Program-made: the position numbers and the translations under genes | Shown here: positions 259-60,957 of the stretch, in pieces | How positions within the stretch are numbered: position 1 is the stretch's first letter | Layout of the letters: each line of letters begins with the position of its first letter | Notes under the pieces: model-generated | Told to the model about the DNA's origin: nothing | Seen by the model: only the letters and a program-made list of their open reading frames with translations | The model's database searches: none | NCBI RefSeq assembly: GCF_963576615.1 | Contig: NC_088717.1 | Span: forward strand, 23,587,344-23,651,343 | DNA length: 64,000 nt | Direction of reading: 5' to 3' | Source: Watersipora subatra | Lineage: Eukaryota; Bryozoa; Gymnolaemata; Cheilostomatida; Watersiporidae

Positions 259-1121
259 TACCTAGCTTCAGGCTTGTAACACCAACATACTCAACTTCAG
301 GCTTGTAACACCAACATACCTAACTTCAGGCTTGTAACACCAACATACCTAGCTTCAGGCTTGTAACACCAACATACCTAACTTCAGGCTTGTAACACCA
401 GCATACCTAACTTCAGGCTTGTAACACCAGCATACCTAACTTCAGGCTTGTAACACCAACATACCTGCTTCAGGCTTGTAACATCAACATACCTAGCTTC
501 AGACTTGTAACACCAACATACCTAATTTCAGGCTTGTAACACCAACATACCTAACTTCAGACTTGTAACACCCACATACCTAACTTCAGGCTTGTAACAC
601 CAACATACCTAACTTCAGGCTTGTAACACCAACATACCTAGCTTCAGGCTTGTAACACCAACATACCTAGCTTCAGGCTTGTAACACCAGCATACCTAAC
701 TTCAGGCTTGTAACACCAGCATACCTAACTTCAGGCTTGTAACACCAACATACCTGCTTCAGGCTTGTAACATCAACATACCTAGCTTCAGACTTGTAAC
801 ACCAACATACCTAATTTCAGGCTTGTAACACCAACATACCTAACTTCAGACTTCTAACACCAACATACCTAACTTCAGACTTGTAACACCAACATACCTA
901 ACTTCAGGCTTGTAACACCAACATACCTAACTTCAGACTTGTAACACCAACATACCTAGCTTCAGACTTGTAACACCAACATACCTGCTTCAGGCTTGTA
1001 ACACCAACATACCTAACTTCAGGCTTGTAACACCAACATACCTGTTTCAGGCTTGTAACATCAACATACCTAGCTTCAGGCTTGTAACACTAACATACCT
1101 AGCTTCAGGCTTGTAACACCA
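259..1121. repeat. ~29-bp minisatellite, about 30 copies, made from a splice-donor region
   Basis: Tandem units of 29 bp (some 27) containing cttcaggcttgtaacacc and ending aacataccta. A block of about ten units recurs about 290 bp later, so the array also grew by larger duplications. Read on the minus strand each unit contains the last ~21 bases of the adjoining TMEM185 exon followed by a donor of the form TAG|GTATGT. The unit nearest the exon is the real exon-intron junction; the rest of the array extends away from the exon into the intron. Confidence 0.95.
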
Positions 1122-1275
1122 GACTCCGATACCAATAACTGAGCCAAATATAATAAGCATTTTCCACAGCCAAAGGGGAAGAAAAACAATCCATATGCTC
1201 CAGCGAATGAGCCCATCCATCCATAAGGACATGAACAGGGAGAAGGTGAGGAGACTCAGATATACTCCCAGCTTC
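1099..1275 (-). CDS. TMEM185: TMEM185-type multi-pass membrane protein, internal exon (partial gene)
   Basis: This minus-strand exon begins after a TGTAG acceptor (intron base 1276) and ends at AG|GTATGT (donor bases 1098-1097). It reads KLGVYLSLLTFSLFMSLWMD and continues with GLIRW, then PLWLWK, then GIGVWCYKPEAR. This matches, as I recall it, the second exon of animal TMEM185A/B, where a transmembrane helix is followed by LDGIIQW, P(I/L)WLWK and GTGVW. The segment holds one full hydrophobic helix and most of a second, as expected for this family of small multi-pass membrane proteins of unknown biochemical role. The exon starts with one base that completes a codon and ends in phase 2. The upstream first exon was not found between 1276 and about 7 kb; later exons lie left of the window. 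The donor sequence is tandemly copied in the minisatellite that follows. Confidence 0.82.
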
Positions 1276-3825
1276 CTACAAATAAACTATGAAGATTACT
1301 TTAACTTCAAGCAAAGGGTTAGACTTATGGTATGTCCAACAGTATGTAGGATATAGTATGTCTAACAGAAGAAATGTTCAATCAGTACACACTAAAATTG
1401 TGACTAACATAAAAAAACTAGGGCAGCTTGCAGCTGCACAGTGTAAAACATGAGACATACAATGCTAGCAGCTAATGTGTTAAGACATCCAAAGACTTCT
1501 ATACAAATGTGAACATACCCTGGATTGACCAGTTGGAACTGCTTTGACAAGTTCATTTCAACTGGGTACTTGATCCTTGCGTGTTCAAGTCATCTCCAAA
1601 TCCTTGTCATTGGTGTTCATCAGCAGAATTTGTTTCTGTTCTCAAGCAGCCATGATCCCAAATATATCTACAAACGCAAATGCCTACGATTGTTGCCACG
1701 GATATAAAAATATAATATTCTACGAATGTAAATCCTAAGCCATTTTTGTGCCCTAGCGCATGGCATATCTTTGACTTGTTACTCTGGTGTACCTTACAGT
1801 CACTCTTCTAAATATTTCATAGGTGAAATGTAGGTCACTAATAGCCTATGGTGAATGCATTAACACCATAATGCAGGTTCAAATTGAAAAATTAAAAAGT
1901 CCTCGACAATTTCTACAGGTTCATCTATCCAGTACAAAATAAACAGATATATAAAAATGAGAGTCAGACCACACGATCATGAGAAGGGCAACAAGAGTGT
2001 TAAGGTCACCTACTCGAGCTTTAAATACCAAACTAAAATTTGCAGTTTGGTTTTAACACAAAAAGAGTAGCAAAATCCACATACAGAGAGCGGCTGTTCT
2101 TACCTAATATAAACAGTTCTGTTCTATTAATATAAACTAAATATGATTTCTGACATTCACCATAAGTTGTACTTATAGTCACACTGGAGTAGTCACAGCA
2201 ATATGTGTGCCTCTGTTAATATTATACGTATAAAATGAACAACATTACACTCTAAGCTTATAAGACGATCAATGAGAAATAATGAACGACATCGTTTAAT
2301 CACTACGTTAAAATTTACATTTACTGATTTTGCAGAAAAACGAACAATGTACATGTATCCCAATATGCACTTACATTGAAGTTATCTTACTTTGCCATAG
2401 CATAATTTGAAAGTATATCAGGAAAAAGTTGAAACTAAACTGGTTTGAAAAAATTTATAAAACTAAAATAGCTGCAAAGGTATCGATTTCAGCATTTATG
2501 AAGGACGAGTGTACAGTTTAAGAGCGTGTTCGAACACCAGATGAGTGCCTTTTGCGTAAAGCTTGTAGCCTTTTTATTATAACAAGAAGACAGAATTATG
2601 AATATGATGACAATTGTATTGCCATAGCAAAGAGACAAGGTTCTATTTCACTACTTTTCACACAAGCACTCACTACAACAGACCAGACAAATACTTATAG
2701 GTTTGCTACGTTTAAGTACCACCTTCTTAAACACTGCTTTTGATTAAATTAGGCTACGTATCAGTATGTAGCAGAGCAGTAGACTATTTTACTCAAAACA
2801 AGAACACTGCCTCTTTTCAAATCAATTGTACCAAGATGAGTTCAATACAGTCGGAGACAGAATGGTGGCAAAAATGCATGATTGTTGTACAGTAGTACTA
2901 ATATTATAAGAATGAAAATGATAGCAGGACGTACTAAGTTTTTCTATTGCAGACTATATAAACTCAGCTAGGTATAATGCAGAGCAATAATAGAGTAATC
3001 AAGGCAGCGCTTTTTGCAAATGGTTTTGATTTTGGTAAAGTAAATAAATAACTGACGCTTGGGAGAAAAGAGAATTGGCATCTATGTGCATCACATAAAA
3101 CTTCCTGAACCGTGAAAAAGTTTTGCTAGCCAATGTAAAAAGGAGCTGTTGACCACTGTGTTCCTAAATTGGGGACAATTTAATAAAATCATCATATCTA
3201 CTAGGGGTTTTATAACAAGTCATTGCAGAGAGCACAAGCCATGAAAACTCATGGGATGCATAGTTGCCGGTTTGGGGAGCTTTTTGCGATAAAAAAGCTG
3301 GAGAATATTTGCATAAAAATTAGAATTATTTTGGTCATGTAACCAATGAATTACAGTGTGTTAAACAATGAACTAAATGTATAGACTAAAATATCTTAAA
3401 TTTATGTATTTACTTTTTATGGATATTCCATTACATCAAACACCATTTCACGTTTGTTCTACAGGTAAACTCCGACGTGGATGCACATACATAGATACAA
3501 AGTTTTAGTAATGTATAACCTCGACTGTATGCACTGTTGGTTTGCGATTTAACGCTTCACTAAATTGGATGGTCAATCATACAGATTATTCAGTGGCAAT
3601 CAATAAAACAGAGTAAGCTAATTGTGAAAATAAAAACCCAATTCATTCTACTGGAACTTATTTGTTATTTGTGATTTTGAACTGTGATTATTTTCATCAA
3701 CAAAAATAGTTCAGCAAAAGAAAGAAGCTGGAGGAGTGATGAAGCCCATAATATGCAATAGCATAGCTAGTCGTGGCGTTGGGCTTGTCGTCATCGGTTT
3801 TATTCACATGTTAAAAGATGCAACC
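1276..3825. other. Intron or intergenic DNA, no gene recognised
   Basis: Only short, compositionally random frames. The first exon of the minus-strand TMEM185 gene should lie to the right of 1275, but no candidate with a proper donor and matching N-terminus was seen. Confidence 0.4.
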
Positions 3826-22012: not shown

Positions 22013-22253
22013 ATACAAAAAGTTAAAAATACCATATTTCAGGTAAGTAAAAAAGTAACAAATTATATTTTTTAGAAATGTTCAATTGAATAAACTCATT
22101 ACTGTTTACCTATAAATAAGTCATAGTCACCACTCACAAACCCCTTGTATAACTGCCATTTCTAAAGAACAGAGTATGTTCTTTATGGTCTATATGAAAG
22201 TTAAAATCCACATGTAGTTGAGGAGCAGGTTTAATAATATATACTGTATATAC

Positions 22254-23066
22254 CTACCTGCAGTCTTACCAACCTTCTCACATACCTGCAGTCTTATCAA
22301 CCTGCTCACATACCTGCAGTCTTATCAACCTGCTCACCTACCCGCAGTCTTACCAACCTTCTCACATACCTGCAGTCTTATCAGCCTGCTCACCTACCGG
22401 CAGTTTTATTAACCTGCTCACCTACCTGCAGTTTTATCAACCTGCTCACCTACCTTCAGTCTCATCAACCTGCTCACCTACCTGCAGTCTAATCAACCTG
22501 CTCACCTACATGCAGTCTTATCAACCTGCTCACCTACATGCAGTCTTATCAACCTGCTCACCTACCTGCAGTCTTACCAACCTTCTCACATACCTGCAGT
22601 CTTATCAACCTGCTCACCTACCTGCAGTTTTATCAACCTGCTCACCTACCTGCAGTCTCATCAACCTGCTCACCTACCTGCAGTCTTATCAACCTGCTCA
22701 CCTACATGCAGTCTTATCAACCTGCTCACCTACATGCAGTCTTATCAACCTGCTCACCTACATGCAGTCTTATCAACCTGCTCACCTACCTGCAGTCTTA
22801 TCAACCTGCTCACCTACATGCAGTCTTATCAACCTGCTCACCTACATGCAGTCTTATCAACCTGCTCACCTACATGCAGTCTTATCAACCTGCTCACCTA
22901 CATGCAGTCTTATTAATCTACTCACCTACATGCAGTCTTATCAACCTGCTCACCTACATGCAGTCTTATCAACCTGCTCACCTACCTGCAGTTTTACTAA
23001 CCTGCTCACCTACATGCAGTCTTATCAACCTGCTCACCTACATGCAGTCTCACCAACCTGCTCACT
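22254..23066. repeat. 28-bp minisatellite, ~29 copies
   Basis: The unit is made of tacctgcagtcttatcaa plus cctgctcacc. Because 28 is not divisible by 3 and the unit lacks stops on the plus strand, long periodic frames (189 codons) appear in more than one frame. These are by-products, not genes. Confidence 0.96.
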
Positions 23067-24748: not shown

Positions 24749-25029
24749 AGTAATAATATATGCTTATATGATGAATGTGGATATCTAAAGCAGCATTCTT
24801 CAAAAACTTTAAACAGAAAATGACCCAGTAACAATACATTGCCCAGAAAATTCAGTTTATACATAGCACTTTAAAGTCATCTGCGTAACTATGACAACAA
24901 GACTACCCATCTGTTATTTACCTGCATTACCGCTCATGCGCAAGCATACTAAATGGCTATAGATAAATAGTTCTGCATTATCTAAGAAACCATCTAAGTA
25001 GTCAAACCAATCTCGAATTGGAGCTGCTA

Positions 25030-26255
25030 CTAAAAAGTGTTTGGAAAGCCTAATTCAGAATGTAGTTTAGGGAGACCAAAAGCCTTCAAAATCATCTCAC
25101 ATCGTTTCACCATGTTTTTATCTTTGCTCCACTCTGTACCTCCAGCTTGTTTTCTCGTATCCCAGCTAGCATTAGCAACTCCTGCTTGGCTGTCATAGTC
25201 CAAAACTTTGCAGGCAGTACCCAATAAATCAGAGTTAATGCTGAGATAGTCAAATACTTTGGCTATTGTGGCACGTCTGTTTTCTAACAGCGAGTCATAC
25301 TTAATGGCTTGGATGTTCACACCTGCCTCGACAGCTCGCTTGATCAATGCTGTTTTTGCGGCCCACATAAAACAGTACCATTCCAGCGCAGTCTTCGGTC
25401 GAACTGAGATTATAAGTTTCTTACAGAATTCATGGTCATATCCGTTTGTCCAGCAATTGAGATTTGAAATGTCAAACCAAAACTTGTCATCGTATGGGTC
25501 ATGGTTCAACGAAATTTTCCAAACATAGCGAATGTAACAGCTATTGTTAAATGTCCGATAGAAAGAAGTTATTGACGGAAAACTTTCTCGGTAAGCCGCG
25601 AGCATCTTGTGATGTGGAAAGTAGTTGGCTATTGTTTCAATAAGATATTCCTCGTAAGCCATCGCTTTCCAAAACACTGATCCACCTTTCGGCGCTTGCC
25701 TAATATATAATTTAATGACAGAGACAGCAAGTCGTGTAAATATCGGTGACTTGGAAAAACTCTCAGCGCTAGAATAGCCATGGTCTCCAAAAGCTATACT
25801 GTACATCATGGCCAGAGGTTCAGAGTAAACTGTCCAACCAGGCAAAGAGTTAAATACCTGAACCCATGCAGTAGATCCGCAACGGGTTGTGTGAAACATC
25901 CAAACAACGTTTCGGTCTCCAACATCAATGGAGTCAACGAGTTCATTGAATGCCTTGATAGGGAGAATTATCAGTCGAATTGCATGGTTAGTCTGGGTGA
26001 GAAAGTTCAGAGGGTGCGCTTTAACGTTGAATAAATCACAGTTTAATTCCACAAAAGCAGCTTTCTTCGAATTCACTGAGAATAGATGGATTCTTCTATT
26101 TAGGACAATATCTACAGGAGCAAATCTTTCATGAACTGTGAAATAGGTCTTCGGATTAATAACCATGGCATATGGGTTTTTCCAGACTATTCGAAGTACT
26201 TGTGCTGGATTTTCTGTGTCGGCATTCATGGTCTCAAAGATTCTTTTTGATGTCC
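25030..26255 (-). CDS. Sulfotransferase-like gene 1, catalytic exon 2
   Basis: Predicted PAPS-dependent sulfotransferase of the secretory pathway. The exon begins after a TTTTAG acceptor with GG-ACA-TCA (GTSKRIFETMN) and ends PKLHSELGFPNTF. The first two bases complete the codon left by exon 1 at 38619-38712, giving about 439 residues. Seen in the joined protein: HTTRCGSTAWVQVF at ~153-166 matches the 5'-phosphosulfate-binding loop (RxGST/S). YSEP at ~175-178 matches the (F/Y)xEP block of carbohydrate sulfotransferases. AYRESFPSITSFYR at ~252-265 matches the 3'-phosphate-binding motif (Arg254 and following Ser). The acceptor sugar or protein cannot be told. It is the most diverged of the four paralogues (VINPKTYF where the others have AxTPKTYF; extra Cys in FNNSCYIRY). 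Open without damage. If splicing to exon 1 does not occur, the Met at 26229 would still give a 399-residue soluble form. Confidence 0.85.
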
Positions 26256-30600: not shown

Positions 30601-30984
30601 TTCATGTTCCTCCTTATGGGACAAAAGAATGACATGTGGTTCCAAATATGAAATTGTGAAACTTACCCAATACCCAAAAAAGAATTGCAGTGATTTGTGT
30701 ATGATGTATCTGTGCTACCTGAATTGTAGACTGAGTATGCATATGTATCTATAAATCTTAACATGACTGTAGCCAGAGATCATCATCATAATTTTAATGG
30801 CTATATGGCATGCGTGTCTATTATTTTTACTTTGACTGTAGTACTGTCAAAGTACGTCATGTCTGAAAAGTTGGAAACATGACAAATTTTGTGTTGTAAA
30901 TACTTTAAGGTACTTATACACATCTATAAACTATAGCCTAACTAATCTCATTGGTGCCATGCAGTATTAACTATTTGACTAGTT

Positions 30985-31287
30985 AACATACAGACAGAGT
31001 AAATACATAGACACAGTCAACACATTGACATAGTCAACACATAGACACAGTCAACACACAGTCAACACATAGACACAGTCAACATATAGACATAGTCAAC
31101 ATATAGACACAGTCAACACATACACACTGTCAACACATAGACAAAGTCTTCACATAGACACAGTTAACACACAGACACAGTTAACACATGCACACAGTCA
31201 ACCCATACACACAGTCAACACATACACACAGTCAACACATAGACACAGTTAACACACAGACACATTCAACACATAGACACAGACCAA
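30985..31287. repeat. 17-bp minisatellite (acacagtcaacacatag), gene 1 intron, left block
   Basis: Tandem copies with small variants. It continues at 38025 on the far side of the Gypsy fossil, so the element lies inside the array. Confidence 0.92.
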
Positions 31288-31944: not shown

Positions 31945-34131
31945 ATGGTAGACAAAGCAGCACCACTACTACAGACAATGTATGATATGTCTGGATTGAC
32001 TCATGCCAGCAAGCCTTTATCCAACTTACGAACGGCGTTGCTAGTGCCGCACACCTATCACATTTTCACCAGACTAGAACATTAGTACTTGCAGCTGATG
32101 CATCTTCTTATGGAGTGGGTGCTGTACTCTCATTGCAGGACACTAATGGTGACGATGAAACACCAATAATCTATGCCTCCAAAACTCTCACTGGTTCTCA
32201 GAAAGGATACTCACAGATAGAGTGGGAAGCACTCTCCAATATACATAGTATCAAAAGGTTCCGTCAATTTCTCTACAGAATGAAGTTTATTCTGCTAACA
32301 GATCATGAGCCTTTAGTAAGCATCTTATCTCTAAGCAAAAACATACCATGACTGCTAAACGTTTTTAAAGATGGACACTGATTCTTATAGGTTTCCAGTA
32401 TGACCTAAGGCACAAGCACATATCTAGACATTCTAAAGCTGATGTATTGTTTAAAGATGGACACTGATTCTTATAGGTTTCCAGTATGACCTAAGGCACA
32501 AGCACATATCTAGACATTCTAAAGCTGATGTACTGTTTAAAGATGGACACTGATTCTTATAGGTTTCCAGTATGACCTAAGGCACAAGCACATATCTAGA
32601 CATTCTAAAGCTGATGTATTGTTTAAAGATGGACACTGATTCTTATAGGTTTCCAGTATGACCTAAGGCACAAGCACATATCTAGACATTCTAAAGCTGA
32701 TGTATTGTTTAAAGATGGACACTGATTCTTATAGGTTTCCAGTATGACCTAAGGTACAAGCACATATCTAGACATTCTAAAGCTGATGTACTGTTTAAAG
32801 ATGGACACTGATTTTTATAGGTTTCCAGTATGACCTAAGGCACAAGCACATATCTAGACATTCTAAAGCTGATGTACTGTTTAAAGATGGACACTGATTC
32901 TTATAGGTTTCCAGTATGACCTAAGGCACAAGCACATATCTAGACATTCTAAAGCTGATGTATTGTTTAAAGATGGACACTGATTCTTATAGGTTTCCAG
33001 TATGACCTAAGGTACAAGCACATATCTAGACATTCTAAAGCTGATGTACTGTTTAAAGATGGACACTGATTTTTATAGGTTTCCAGTATGACCTAAGGCA
33101 CAAGCACATATCTAGACATTCTAAAGCTGATGTACTGTTTAAAGATGGACACTGATTCTTATGGGTCTCCAGTATGACCTAAGGCACAAGCACATATCTA
33201 GACATTCTAAAGCTGTTGTATTGTTTAAAGATGGACACTGATTCTTATAGGTTTCCAGTATGACCTAAGGTACAAGCACATATCTAGACATTCTAAAGCT
33301 GATGTACTGTTTAAAGATGGACACTGATTTTTATAGGTTTCCAGTATGACCTAAGGCACAAGCACATATCTAGACATTCTAAAGCTGATGTACTGTTTAA
33401 AGATGGACCCTGTTTCTTATAGGTTTCCAGTATGACCTAAGGTACAAGCACATATCTAGACATTCTAAAGCTGATGTACTGTTTAAAGATGGACACTGAT
33501 TCTTATGGGTCTCCAGTATGACCTAAGGCACAAGCACATATCTAGACATTCTAAAGCTGTTGTATTGTTTAAAGATGGACACTGATTCTTATAGGTTTCC
33601 AGTATGACCTAAGGCACAAGCACATATCTAGACATTCTAAAGCTGATGTATTGTTTAAAGATGGACACTGATTCTTATGGGTTTCCAGTATGACCTAAGG
33701 CACAAGCACATATCTAGACATTCTAAAGCTGATGTACTGTTTAAAGATGGACACTGATTCTTATAGGTTTCCAGTATGACCTAAGGTACAAGCACATATC
33801 TAGACATTCTAAAGCTGATGTACTGTTTAAAGATGGACACTGATTCTTATAGGTTTCCAGTATGACCTAAGGCACAAGCACATATCTAGACATTCTAAAG
33901 CTGATGTATTGTTTAAAGATGGACACTGATTCTTATGGGTTTCCAGTATGACCTAAGGCACAAATCTAGACATTCTAAAGCTGATGTATTGTTTAAAGAT
34001 GGACACTGATTCTTATAGGTTTCCAGTATGACCTAGGGCACAAGCACATATCTAGACATTCTAAAGCTGATGTACTGTTTAAAGATGGACACTGATTCTT
34101 ATGGGTTTCCAGTATGACCTAAGGTACAAGC
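31945..34131. repeat. 2187-bp tandem duplication inside the Gypsy fossil, first copy
   Basis: The segment starting catggtagacaaagcagc at about 31945 (RNase H region plus a full satellite block) starts again at about 34132. The second copy runs to about 36318. The two are almost identical, including the order of satellite variants. Confidence 0.9.
32363..34131. repeat. 86-bp satellite array, first block, ~20 copies
   Basis: The unit includes tttaaagatggacactgatt, tccagtatgacctaaggc and tagacattctaaagctga. It derives from the part of the Gypsy element between RNase H and integrase. Variants (ataggttt/atgggtct, gatg/gttg) occur in a patterned order. Confidence 0.96.
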
Positions 34132-34550
34132 ATGGTAGACAAAGCAGCACCACTACTACAGACAATGTATGATATGTCTGGATTGACTCATGCCAGCAAG
34201 CCTTTATCCAACTTACGAACGGCGTTGCTAGTGCCGCACACCTATCACATTTTCACCAGACTAGAACATTAGTACTTGCAGCTGATGCATCTTCTTATGG
34301 AGTGGGTGCTGTACTCTCATTGCAGGACACTAATGGTGACGATGAAACACCAATAATCAATGCCTCCAAAACTCTCACTGGTTCTCAGAAAGGATACTCA
34401 CAGATAGAGTGGGAAGCACTCTCCAATATACATAGTATCAAAAGGTTCCGTCAATTTCTCTACAGAATGAAGTTTATTCTGCTAACAGATCATGAGCCTT
34501 TAGTAAGCATCTTATCTCTAAGCAAAAACATACCATGACTGCTAAACGTT

Positions 34551-36430
34551 TTTAAAGATGGACACTGATTCTTATAGGTTTCCAGTATGACCTAAGGCAC
34601 AAGCACATATCTAGACATTCTAAAGCTGATGTATTGTTTAAAGATGGACACTGATTCTTATAGGTTTCCAGTATGACCTAAGGCACAAGCACATATCTAG
34701 ACATTCTAAAGCTGATGTACTGTTTAAAGATGGACACTGATTCTTATAGGTTTCCAGTATGACCTAAGGCACAAGCACATATCTAGACATTCTAAAGCTG
34801 ATGTATTGTTTAAAGATGGACACTGATTCTTATAGGTTTCCAGTATGACCTAAGGCACAAGCACATATCTAGACATTCTAAAGCTGATGTATTGTTTAAA
34901 GATGGACACTGATTCTTATAGGTTTCCAGTATGACCTAAGGTACAAGCACATATCTAGACATTCTAAAGCTGATGTACTGTTTAAAGATGGACACTGATT
35001 TTTATAGGTTTCCAGTATGACCTAAGGCACAAGCACATATCTAGACATTCTAAAGCTGATGTACTGTTTAAAGATGGACACTGATTCTTATGGGTCTCCA
35101 GTATGACCTAAGGCACAAGCACATATCTAGACATTCTAAAGCTGTTGTATTGTTTAAAGATGGACACTGATTCTTATAGGTTTCCAGTATGACCTAAGGT
35201 ACAAGCACATATCTAGACATTCTAAAGCTGATGTACTGTTTAAAGATGGACACTGATTTTTATAGGTTTCCAGTATGACCTAAGGCACAAGCACATATCT
35301 AGACATTCTAAAGCTGATGTACTGTTTAAAGATGGACACTGATTCTTATTGGTTTCCAGTATGACCTAAGGTACAAGCACATATCTAGACATTCTAAAGC
35401 TGATGTACTGTTTAAAGATGGACACTGATTCTTATGGGTCTCCAGTATGACCTAAGGCACAAGCACATATCTAGACATTCTAAAGCTGTTGTATTGTTTA
35501 AAGATGGACACTGATTCTTATAGGTTTCCAGTATGACCTAAGGCACAAGCACATATCTAGACATTCTAAAGCTGATGTATTGTTTAAAGATGGACACTGA
35601 TTCTTATGGGTTTCCAGTATGACCTAAGGCACAAGCACATATCTAGACATTCTAAAGCTGATGTACTGTTTAAAGATGGACACTGATTCTTATAGGTTTC
35701 CAGTATGACCTAAGGTACAAGCACATATCTAGACATTCTAAAGCTGATGTACTGTTTAAAGATGGACACTGATTCTTATGGGTTTCCAGTATGACCTAAG
35801 GCACAAATCTAGACATTCTAAAGCTGATGTATTGTTTAAAGATGGACACTGATTCTTATGGGTTTCCAGTATGACCTAAGGCACAAGCACATATCTAGAC
35901 ATTCTAAAGCTGATGTACTGTTTAAAGATGGACACTGATTCTTATGGGTTTCCAGTATGACCTAAGGTACAAGCACATATCTAGACATTCTAAAGCTGAT
36001 GTATTGTTTAAAGATGGACACTGATTCTTATAGGTTTCCAGTATGACCTAAGGCACAAATCTAGACATTCTAAAGCTGATGTATTGTTTAAAGATGGACA
36101 CTGATTCTTATAGGTTTCCAGTATGACCTAAGGTACAAGCACATATCTAGACATTCTAAAGCTGATGTACTGTTTAAAGATGGACACTGATTTTTATAGG
36201 TTTCCAGTATGACCTAAGGCACAAGCACATATCTAGACATTCTAAAGCTGATGTACTGTTTAAAGATGGACACTGATTCTTATAGGTTTCCAGTATGACC
36301 TAAGGCACAAGCACATATCTAGACATTCTAAAGCTGATGTACTGTTTAAAGATGGACACTGATTCTTATGGGTCTCCAGTATGATCTAAGGCACAAGCAC
36401 ATATCTAGACATTCTAAAGCTGATGTATTG
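34551..36430. repeat. 86-bp satellite array, second block, ~22 copies
   Basis: Same unit as the first block. Most of it repeats the first block's variant order as part of the 2187-bp duplication. The last unit runs directly into the normal element sequence at about 36430. Confidence 0.96.
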
Positions 36431-38024
36431 TTTTTGCTTCCATTTGGTTTTCACAACCAGTTTGATTCTGCTGAAAAACTGGAGAACCAAGAAATTTCAC
36501 AAGTGCTGAGAAAAGAAGTAGAAACCCATCCAATAGACTTTATGCTAATCCAGCAGTCCAGTAAACAGAATCCTAAACTGTAAGCTGTCTTCAAATGAAT
36601 TTCAAAAGAACAGCCTATAAACGAACCCAAAAAAGAGAGTTCACCAATTTTGGAAGCACAGAGACTCCCTCACCATACAAGACGGTGTGATGCTTATTCA
36701 GAAAAATGCCAATTGCAGAGTTGTTGTATCTAAGGCACTGCAGTCTGCACACTAGAGACTCTACACACATCTCACTGGAGAGGGATAAAAATAAAGCAAC
36801 TGGCTAGGCATTACATATGGCGGGAGTTCATTAATTCTGACATTGAGGTAATGACAGGATTTTGTGACATCTGTAGACAGCAGGTCCCTCTGCCTCCGCA
36901 GCTCTACACCGTATGGCCTGCATCACTAAAGCCCTGGAGTCGCATTCACTTGGATTTTGCAAGGCCGTTCAGGGGCAAGATGTGGCTTTTGTGCGTGGCC
37001 ACATTTTCAATGTTCGTTATGTCGGAATGATGGACATTGGAAAGACTAGAACTCAGCAAACGATTCATGTTCTCATAGGTATATTTTACTTCCAGGGCCT
37101 ACCAAAAACAATTGTTACAGACAACGGCCCACAATTTGCGTCTAAAAAGTTTGATGAGTCCTTTAGCCAACATTCCATTCAACATATCGCCTCCCCTGCT
37201 TACCATCCATCATCTAATAGCAAAGCTGAGTGGTATGTACAAAAATTCAACAAAGTAGTAGAAAAGAACGGTGTGAGAAGAATTTAGCTAAAGGACAGTG
37301 TACGTTTTTAACTTGGCACCTACCGAATGCTCCCTCACCCAAGCCTTAACTGAAAAACTCTTTCTGAATTGTTGCATGGGCGACAACCAAGATGCCTACT
37401 TTCCTCACTGAATCCAAAAGATAATGTTGCTCATGTATCTAAGATGACCACCACCTCAAACCCTTCACAATTTGTGAGTTTCTTTGGTGTACGCTCGCAA
37501 CTATTTATCTGACCCTAAATGGTATCCAGGCCAAGTTGTTTCTAAAGTAGGTTCTACATCCTTTAAGATTAAATCATTAAGATTTCTACTGACTAAGGAT
37601 TTTGGAAAAGACATCCAAACCAACTTCAAATTCCCATGTCAAAAACTAGCATATCTAGTGCTACTGTTGCACCGGCTGACCTAGATGAAATGCCTTCTGG
37701 TCAGCCTGACAGTGACTTGGTACCTGATGGATGATACCCTCTTTGTGTTAGAAACCTAAGCGATACTAACCCTAAACTCATAACTTGTGTTGGAGGAGTG
37801 TCATGTACTCATATTTAGTTAATTAGTTTGCAATTAGGTCAGTAGCTGTTTTTTCTTCTAGTAGTCATTGTTGACTCATATTTTGTCTTAATTTTTACAC
37901 TTGCACAAGTTTCTGCATACTTTGTCTTGTCAAGTTGAGCTTTTATAGCTAACATGCCAATGAACACAGTAGCCTACATCTTTAAAGTAATTACCAAAGA
38001 TGCCTCTTCACTTGTAAACATACC

Positions 38025-38387
38025 AACAGTCAACATATGGACACAGTCAACACATTGACACAGTCAACACATAGACACAGTCAACATATAGACACAGTCA
38101 ACACATAAACACAGTCAGCACATAGACACAGTCAACACGTACACACAGTCAGCACATAAACACAGTCAACACATAGACACAGTCAACATATAGACACAGT
38201 CAACACATAAACACAGTCAGCACATGGCCAAGTCAACACACAAACACAGTCAACATGTAGACACAGTCAACACATAGACACAGTCAGCACATAAACGCAG
38301 TCAACACATAGACACAGTCAACTTATAGACACGGTCAACACATAGACACAGTCAACACATAGACACAGCCAACACATAGACACAGAA
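38025..38387. repeat. 17-bp minisatellite, gene 1 intron, right block
   Basis: Continuation of the array at 30985-31287 after the Gypsy fossil. Confidence 0.92.
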
Positions 38388-44195: not shown

Positions 44196-45136
44196 GACTA
44201 GTCAACACATAGACACAGTTAAGACATAGACACAGTCAACACATAGACACAGTCAACATATAGACACAGTCAACACATAGACACAGTCAACACATAGACA
44301 CTGTCAACACATAGACACAGTCAACACATAGACACAGTCAACGCATAGACACTGTTAACACATAGACACTGTCAACACATAGACACATTCAACAAATAGA
44401 TAGAGTCAACCCATAGACACAGTCAACCCATAGATACAGTCAACACATAGACACAGTCAACACATAGACACAGTCAACACATAGATAGAGTCAACCCATA
44501 GACACAGTCAACACATAGACACAGTCAACACATAGACACTGTTAACACATAGACACTGTCAACACATAGACACATTCAACAAATAGATAGAGTCAACCCA
44601 TAGACACAGTCAACCCATAGATACAGTCAACACATAGACACAGTCAACACATAGACACAGTCAACACATAGATAGAGTCAACCCATAGACACAGTCAACA
44701 CATAGACACAGTCAACACATAGAATCAGTCAACACATGGAAACAGTCAACACATAGACACAGTCAACACATAGACACAGTCAACACATAGAATCAGTCAA
44801 CACATGGAATCAGTCAACGCATAGACACAGTGGACACATAGACGGAGTCAACACACAGACACAGTCAACACATAGACACAGTCAACACATAGACGCAGTC
44901 AACACATAGACATAGTCAACGCATAGACACAGTCAACACAGAGACGCAGTCAAAACATAGAGACATTCAACACATAGGCACAATCAACACATAGACACAG
45001 TCAACACATAGAAACATTCAACATATAAACACAGTCAACACATAGACACAGTCAACACATAGAAACATTCAACATATAAACACAGTCAACAAATAAATAC
45101 AATCAACACATAGACATAGTCAACACATAGCCAGAG
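44196..45136. repeat. 17-bp minisatellite, gene 2 intron, ~55 copies
   Basis: The same acacagtcaacacatag unit as in genes 1 and 4. A variant block (gacactgttaacac ... aaatagatagagtcaaccc) recurs after 187 bp, exactly 11 units, so an 11-unit higher-order repeat exists. Confidence 0.95.
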
Positions 45137-57613: not shown

Positions 57614-58839
57614 CTAAAAGCTGTTTGGATAGCTTAACTCAGAATGCAGCTTGGGGAGACCAAAAGCGTTCAAGATCATCTCACAGCGTTTCACTACATT
57701 TTTGTCTTTGCTCCACTCTGTGCCTCCACCTTGTTGTCTCGTATCCCAGCTAGCATTAGCAATTCCTGCTTGGCTATCAAAGTCCAAAGCTCTACTGGCA
57801 ATATCCAATAAACCAGAATTGATGCCGAGATAGTCAAACACTTTGGCTAGCGTGGCACGTCTGTTTTGTAACAGCGAATCATACTTAATGGCTTGAATTT
57901 TCACACCTGCCCCGAAGGCTCGCTTGAGCAATGATGCTTTTGCTGCCCACAGAAAGCAGTACCATTCCACCGCAGTCTTCGGTTGAACTGCAATTATAAC
58001 CTTCTTACAGAATTCATGATCGTATCCGTTTGTCCAACCATTGACATTTGACATTTCAAACCAAAACTCATCATCATACGGGTCATGGTTCAACCAAATT
58101 TCACAAAGGTAGCGAATGTAACCGTCATTGTTGAATGTCCGATAAAAAGAAGTTATTGACGGAAAACTTTCTCGATAAGCCGCGAGCATCTTGTGATGTG
58201 GAAAGCAGTTGGTTATCGTTTCTATAAGATATTCTTCAAACATCGCTGCTTTCCAAAACACTGATCCGCCTTTCGGCGCTTGCCTAATATACAATTTAAT
58301 GATAGAGACAGCAAATCGTGTGAATATAGGTGACTTGGAAAAACTCTCAGCACTAGAATAGCCATGGTCTCCAAAAAGAATGCTGTATATCATTGGCAGG
58401 GGTTCTGAGTAAACTGTCCAGCCAGGCAAAGAATTAAATACTTGAACCCAAGCAGTAGATCCGCAACGGGTCGTGTTAAACATCCAAACAACGTTTCGGT
58501 CTCCAACATCAATAGAGTCAACTAGGTCATTGAATGCTTTGATAGGCAGGATTATCAGTCGAATTGCATGGGTGGTTTGGGTGAGAAAGCTCAGAGGATG
58601 CTCTTTAACGTTGAATAAATCACAGTCTAATTCCATAAAAGTAGCACTCTTTGAAGTCAAAGAGAATAGATGGATTCTCTTATTTAGGACAATATCTACT
58701 GGAGCAAATCTTTCATGAACTGTGAAATAGGTCTTCGGAGTAGCAGCAAACGCGTAGGGATTTTTCCACACTATTCGAAGAACTTGCGCAGGATTCTCCG
58801 CGTCGCAATTCATAGTCTCAAAGACTCTTTTTGATGTCC
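57614..58839 (-). CDS. Sulfotransferase-like gene 4, catalytic exon 2
   Basis: Paralogue with acceptor TTTCAG and start GTSKRVFETMN. It ends PKLHSELSYPNSF, the only copy with an altered C-terminus. Exon 1 is at 61179-61272, intron 2.3 kb, total about 439 residues. The phosphosulfate loop is NTTRCGSTAW (Asn for His before it), and YSEPL and YRESFPSITSFYR are intact. Other private changes are FTRFAVSIIKLYI, KRAFGAGVKIQ and WDTRQQGGGTEW. Closest to gene 3. Open throughout. The acceptor substrate is unknown; Golgi localisation is inferred from the exon 1 anchor. Confidence 0.87.
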
Positions 58840-59709: not shown

Positions 59710-60100
59710 TATTTGACTAGTTAACATACAGACACAGTCAACACATAGACACAGTCAACACATAGACATAGTCAACACATAGACACAGTCAACATATAGA
59801 CACAGTCAACACATAAACACACTCGGCAATTAAACAAAGTCAGCACATAGATCAAGTCAACACATAGATACAGTCAACACATAGATACAGTCAACACATA
59901 GACACAGTCAACACATAGATACAGTCAACACATAGACACAGTCAACACATAGATACAGTCAACACATAGACACAGTCAACACATAGATACACTCAACACA
60001 TAGACACAGTCAACACATAGACACAGTCAACACATAGACACAGTCAACACATAGACATAGTCAACATATAGACACAGTCAACACATAGACACAGTCAACA
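59710..60100. repeat. 17-bp minisatellite, gene 4 intron, left block
   Basis: acacagtcaacacatag units with frequent gataca variants. Confidence 0.94.
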
Positions 60101-60754: not shown

Positions 60755-60957
60755 CAACACATAGACACAGTCAACATATAGACACAGTCAACACATAAAC
60801 ACACTCAGCAATTAAACAAAGTCAGCACATAGATCAAGTCAACACATAGATCCAGTCAACACATAGACACAGTCAACACATAGACACAGTCAACACATAA
60901 ACACAGTCAACACATAGACACAGTCAACACAAAGACACAGTTAACACATAGACACAT
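60755..60957. repeat. 17-bp minisatellite, gene 4 intron, right block
   Basis: Continuation of the array after the solo LTR. Confidence 0.92.

Follow-up and report, generated by a model that had tools for sequence, protein, structure and literature searches.

In the cheilostome bryozoan Watersipora subatra, a TMEM185-type gene carries, beginning within the end of its second exon, a minisatellite that repeats the exon end together with its 5' splice site (donor) 30 times. The gene was found at the beginning of a 64,000-nt stretch of contig NC_088717.1 (positions 23,587,344 to 23,651,343, read on the forward strand), here called the window, to which plain coordinates refer. Quite probably, the exon-end unit has been duplicated in tandem while the donor joined to the exon still works and the 29 copies behind it are tolerated as decoys. 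The parts of the gene and of the array are given below as read on the minus strand, with a bar marking the splice junction.

1519..1556, minus strand: exon 1, MNLSKQFQLVNPG, phase 2, donor GG|GTATGT; sole candidate passing a motif scan upstream of exon 2
1099..1275, minus strand: exon 2, 177 nt, acceptor TTTATTTGTAG|G, ending GAAGCTAG; PF10269 match
1093..1098, minus strand: donor 1, TAG|GTATGT, inferred functional 5' splice site, from the phase 2 join to exon 3 and the Pfam spans
259..1120, minus strand: 30-unit minisatellite, by Tandem Repeats Finder (TRF) and in-register cutting; unit 1 (1120..1092) overlaps the exon end, units 2 to 30 lie in intron 2
1069 down to 261 (G of each GT), minus strand: 29 decoy donors, in-register units 2 to 30

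From the window, TRF reports an array at 259-1121 with a period of 29, 29.9 copies and 93% matches. When the minus strand is divided in register, the array resolves into 25 units of 29 bp, four of 28 bp (units 3, 5, 13 and 23) and a final partial one, which holds the register for 25 nt, departs after GGTA and gives way to unrepeated intron. Exon 2 terminates in CTGGTGTTACAAGCCTGAAGCTAG, followed by GTATGTT, and unit 1 is this authentic exon end, GGTGTTACAAGCCTGAAGCTAG|GTATGTT, made up of 22 exonic and 7 intronic nt. Units 16, 17 and 27 match unit 1 perfectly over 29 nt, and each of the remaining units shares 26 or more of 29 aligned positions with it. GT at the donor position is retained throughout (30/30), and AGGTATG is present in 28 of the 30 units, the exceptions being units 29 and 30. 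With a 30-fold recurrence of identity this long, chance is excluded. A preliminary description of this DNA had proposed that the exon end and its donor are copied in tandem units of about 29 bp, the repeat unit matching across the exon-intron junction, and the alignment bears out both statements. Its count of about 30 units following the donor holds for the total number of copies; one of these, however, is the exon itself, hence 29 decoys.

When units are compared at offsets of 1 to 15, those 10 apart are most alike (96.9%, versus 92-94% at the other offsets), hence a 10-unit block was itself duplicated. Such a block repeat could be mis-assembled, so that copy number might be inflated or collapsed. 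Nevertheless, an assembly artefact is highly improbable in view of units that differ among themselves, two 10-unit blocks that are not identical and other junction arrays in the genome that have different units. A DNA search of the one assembly found a single copy of the TMEM185-type locus. An array on C6, which came up in the DNA search and was considered as a possible relative, was dismissed: it has a 26-bp unit, the only sequence common to both is the short word TGTTGGTGTTACA, and no exon was recognized there by eye.

Assignment of the gene to the TMEM185 family is based on the profile PF10269 (Tmemb_185A), which is matched by the exon 2 region alone with E=5.7e-7. Exon 3, located by motif, lies outside the window at C10:23583844-23584057, corresponding to an intron 2 of 4384 nt. 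Joining both exons at donor 1 proceeds in phase 2, with AG|A encoding R, and results in a 130-residue product matching PF10269 with E=1.3e-24 and 87.7 bits, well above the curated cut-off of 23.1. In this match, residues 19-129 are placed on profile positions 3-113, that is, 111 on 111, and the alignment therefore crosses the exon 2-exon 3 junction with no net gap. As joining at donor 1 yields a TMEM185 protein with equal profile spans, we infer that donor 1 is the real donor of exon 2. The claim that the first donor is the functional one, with decoys coming after it, is thus supported by homology, donor 1 making the family protein. A tblastn search with a human TMEM185A probe gives six collinear minus-strand blocks, with E from 5.6e-17 to 5e-4. 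None of them is interrupted by a stop, and the final one ends with IEMPD and then a stop codon; exons 4-7 are placed approximately. With collinear open blocks ending in a stop codon, all on one strand, the gene looks functional. In a PF10269 search of the own genome, exons 2 and 3 each score above the cut-off, as does one further place (C2:28883916-28884257). Pfam scans of three 10-kb segments, in three frames with stops read as X, did not give any match, although exon 3 lies within them.

Use of donors 2 to 30 would add between 29 and 837 nt to exon 2. The preliminary description had assumed that the frame is kept only by adding three units (87 nt), which is incorrect: because four units are 28 bp long, 11 of the 29 additions are multiples of three. 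Yet all decoy isoforms (29/29) are predicted to be truncated. With donor 2, the frame shift leads to a stop in exon 3; for donors 3 to 30, the added sequence holds an in-frame TGA in unit 3. The course of events that we favor would have begun with tandem duplication of a 29-bp stretch across the boundary of exon 2 and intron 2, followed by expansion to 30 copies, including the later duplication of the 10-unit block. Unit 1, which is joined to the exon, would have stayed the working donor, and most transcripts would be expected to be spliced via donor 1. Where a decoy is occasionally used, the mRNA would have a shifted frame or contain an in-frame stop, and it would presumably be removed by nonsense-mediated decay, as introns still follow. 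Nonsense-mediated decay of mRNAs with an early stop ahead of later introns is well established. Since every decoy truncates the product, donor 1 would be maintained by selection acting on the protein. Recursive splicing via the AG|GT of each unit was also considered and rejected, as on inspection the units are without a pyrimidine tract before the AG.

Repeats of this kind are already known, and the TMEM185-type array is a further case of the type represented by human CBS, ABCA7 and IFI6. With units of 28-29 bp beginning in exon 2, the array falls within the range of about 10-100 bp and sits at an exon-intron boundary as in other donor-spanning variable number tandem repeats (VNTRs); the donor is kept in the units, and the authentic one, as judged by homology only, comes first. 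The 31-bp VNTR of CBS, c.1444_1467+7(16_21), has 16-21 copies (PMC2630376) and is positioned at exon 13-intron 13 (PMC1395315). By its coordinates, the CBS unit comprises 24 exonic and 7 intronic nt and would thus repeat the donor each time, similar to the 22 + 7 nt and 30 copies found here. In contrast to the bryozoan array, it has units of 31 instead of 29 bp, belongs to a different gene, is polymorphic and has been studied in people. In ABCA7, the closest case with measurements, the first two nucleotides (GT) of a 25-bp VNTR in intron 18 are the canonical donor of exon 18 (PMC5954066), so that there, too, the repeat starts at the authentic donor of an exon. Splicing at the donor of the next unit leaves 25 bp in the transcript and thereby alters the frame; this one-unit retention appears to account for 2 ± 1% of transcripts and is constant with array length (PMC5954066). 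The commonest alternative isoform is skipping of exon 19, at 45 ± 10%, which rises with VNTR length (PMC5954066). Unlike the present array, the ABCA7 repeat is described from the GT on and not from inside the exon, is disease-linked, and has exon 19 skipping as a measured outcome. By analogy, the similar anatomy of ABCA7, with one-unit retention as a minor isoform, would support a largely tolerated array.

Downstream units can also be employed, as in human IFI6 (6-16, G1P3), where a minisatellite provides multiple donors (PMC4526556, citing Turri et al. 1995) and, unlike what is proposed here, downstream units serve as donors, giving rise to three mRNAs (PMC4526556). Tandem repeats with a mean unit of 30 bp at exon-intron boundaries alter splicing in human segmental duplications (PMC2812944); these differ from the TMEM185-type array in affecting recently duplicated genes, in averaging 4 copies and in being described as forming novel introns. 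Also considered were a reported case in potato of introns gained through a tandemly duplicated AGGT (PMC4974935) and the intronic minisatellites of an earthworm metallothionein gene, for which donor repeats are not among the features described in the accessible text. The open-licence literature in PubMed Central, as far as accessible, yielded neither an invertebrate case nor a genome-wide account of junction-seeded arrays. As the junction-spanning VNTRs found in print are all human, the present case suggests that they are no human peculiarity.

Several observations weigh against decoys that are simply tolerated. In pairing with the U1 5' end, computed with ViennaRNA duplexfold, most decoys have the same value as donor 1, -6.7 kcal/mol, and the four 28-bp units, which bear CAG|GTATGT at 1041, 984, 753 and 464, reach -8.3 kcal/mol. 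The other deviating units are unit 19 with -7.8, units 14, 15, 24 and 25 with -5.6, unit 29 with -5.1 and unit 30 with -6.2 kcal/mol. As four decoys outpair donor 1, any advantage of the latter would have to lie in position or exon definition; to win, donor 1 would have to rely on its position (first transcribed, shortest exon), strength giving no explanation. Folding of a 241-nt RNA spanning the first units did not reveal any special structure favoring donor 1 (z=0.15). Moreover, the AGGTATG block is invariant in units 1-28 while 9 of the 29 columns vary (post hoc P=0.05), a pattern that is compatible both with chance and with selection acting on the decoys and is not used here as evidence for selection. 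Finally, in 90% of the brain samples from BA10, the alternative isoforms of ABCA7 together outnumber the canonical one (PMC5954066), hence such an array need not be harmless.

The U1 values also bear on a second reading, in which the array would be a neutral minisatellite without function, none of its decoys ever being recognized. This is conceivable, albeit on balance rather improbable. It is consistent with TMEM185-type exons that are, as far as found, open and in order, and with the cost of any used decoy, every decoy isoform being defective; that most decoys equal donor 1 in U1 pairing and four exceed it argues against complete neglect by the splicing machinery. A third reading takes the array as a length-dependent dosage control, where with more donors more U1 would be bound in the intron, decoys would be used or exon 3 skipped more often, and less TMEM185 protein would result. 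Truncation by all 29 decoys would be compatible with such a role, and in ABCA7 exon 19 skipping goes up and expression down with a longer VNTR (PMC5954066), while the CBS VNTR is linked to reduced activity by the title of Lievers 2001. One-unit retention itself, however, is constant across lengths in ABCA7 (PMC5954066), and we regard dosage control as unlikely. A donor trailed by 29 near-identical donors, four of which pair better with U1, represents a natural experiment on the question why, among several equal 5' splice sites, one is preferred by the spliceosome.

Arrays at exon edges are not confined to the TMEM185-type gene. Places where a donor word occurs three times at tandem spacing were surveyed, with matches listed on C1 up to 13.6 Mb for AGGTATGT and up to 4.24 Mb for AGGTAAGT. 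Among the matches listed, nine arrays with AGGTATGT and four with AGGTAAGT were distinguished, 13 in all. Each was read at the edge on the 5' side of the motif, in general there alone, and exons were judged by eye. Two of the 13 start at an exon donor and one adjoins an exon acceptor, and at the edge read no exon was recognized by eye for the remaining 10.

C1:1754785, minus strand: donor array (a), exon ending CAAGGCCACCTCTATAG|GTAGGTGG, then units of about 34 bp, TTTCACCTCTACAG|GTAAGTGG
C1:13606128, plus strand: donor array (b), 179-nt exon ending TCATCACACGCTGCAAG|GTATGTTTG, then 47-bp units
C1:1252365 (exon start), plus strand: acceptor array (c), 39-bp units, TTCTGTGTCTATTACAG|CCTGACAACRTACCTCCCTATG, leading into the exon

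The gene of array (a) is presumably FAM135-like. Its array-bearing exon, without any match in Pfam or NCBIfam, joins the next exon to give GHLYSDFASIASDLPYF...HLVICVHGLDG. The latter exon shows a weak match to PF05057 (E=3.7e-4, 20.5 bits versus a cut-off of 20.3), which falls below the cut-off when the exon is cut at HGLDG (E=0.002 joined and 0.0045 alone). Soon after this next exon, a second, different tandem array with a unit of about 37 bp (GGTCTCAAGTATCAAGGTTAGACTGTATATTGTATCT-like) begins within C1:1753000-1754500 on the minus strand, so that two successive introns of the FAM135-like gene seem to carry arrays. Array (b), in a gene which we take to be MARF1-like, shows 51 recognized units within 2.5 kb, 44 of them with GT, and extends past C1:13612200, more than 6 kb from its exon. 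An upstream exon of this gene gives a sub-threshold hit to the NYN domain (PF01936, E=3.2e-4, 21.7 bits versus 24.2), and no match for the array (b) exon was obtained in Pfam, NCBIfam or PDB. The exon entered from array (c) matches voltage-gated calcium channel beta subunits in PDB (E=5.1e-33, residues 2-82 on 14-94). Hence, exon-edge arrays recur in the genome of Watersipora subatra, and this recurrence within one genome may be the new part of the present findings. As the same genome has no fewer than two further donor arrays, and an acceptor array as well, at exons, the position, strength and number of splice sites become comparable without engineering.

Whether splice junctions are preferred birthplaces of minisatellites here, for example with bound U1 or co-transcriptional structure favoring slippage, was evaluated from word counts, and we consider the idea doubtful. 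Apart from the three further junction-anchored arrays among the 13 listed, it draws on triples of AGGTAAGT at 3804 places versus 301 for the reversed word, and of CAGGTAAGT at 443 versus 66. When counted as arrays among the matches listed, AGGTAAGT occurs in 4 within 4.24 Mb compared to 4 within 79.35 Mb of C1 for the reverse (p=0.0004). The two donor words together give 13 arrays in 17.8 Mb versus 11 in 34.9 Mb for AGTAAGGT, a dinucleotide-preserving, non-donor shuffle for which two clusters 5 kb apart were counted as one, corresponding to a 2.3-fold excess (p=0.03). Outside tandem repeats, the single words are about equally common, as established in a sample of 24 stretches including the window (294 kb in all, arrays by TRF): AGGTAAGT was found 12 times, its reverse 13 times and AGTAAGGT 12 times, and AGGTATGT 9 times versus 12 for its reverse. 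However, the shuffle AGTAAGGT also outnumbers its own reverse (1884 versus 277 places, 6.8-fold), and therefore the reversed word is a poor control that overstates the effect. Furthermore, AGGTATGT exceeds its reverse only 1.7-fold (2676 versus 1606), the totals are largely made up by big arrays (of the CAGGTAAGT matches listed, all except five belong to a single array), and taken singly the two donor words give p=0.07 and p=0.08 against the shuffle. Some junction anchoring is also expected with arrays that had been picked for a donor word, and at least three AGGTRWGT occur in just 3 of the 66 arrays with a period of 10-100 and at least 4 copies in the 294-kb sample, two of the three being in the window. 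Consequently, donor enrichment in array birth is suggestive only. It is likewise improbable, at about the same level, that junctions seed minisatellites repeatedly, so that donor or acceptor copies in many genes form a natural allelic series in which length tunes gene output. If this applied, series of splice-site multiplicity, with one array of more than 6 kb, would test spliceosome choice among dozens of near-identical sites.

With approximately 10.7% of the 294-kb sample in TRF arrays, the genome is very rich in minisatellites. The window holds a second donor-bearing one, apart from the TMEM185 case.

22252..23065, minus strand: minisatellite with 28-bp units, CTGCAG|GTAGGT, by TRF

Many units of this array have CTGCAG|GTAGGT, and most of those nearest its 5' end have CTGCAT|GTAGGT; no coding exon was recognized beside it. 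Two peptides that resemble each other (SAESFSKSPIFTR...KLYIRQAPKGGSVFW) are found on the minus strand, one at 25669-25782 and the other at 58253-58420, which suggests that the window contains a duplicated gene; 24900-26250 gave no Pfam match above cut-off. The first 161 positions of the window belong to a dispersed repeat of up to about 160 bp, which is present at at least 38 other genomic places with 69-82% identity, many of them partial. A 4-kb array at 32364-36433 consists of 47 copies of an 86-bp unit, and one 17-bp unit (AGTCAACACATAGACAC and rotations) makes up five arrays, at 30981-31282, 38026-38385, 44200-45130, 59719-60100 and 60755-60956.
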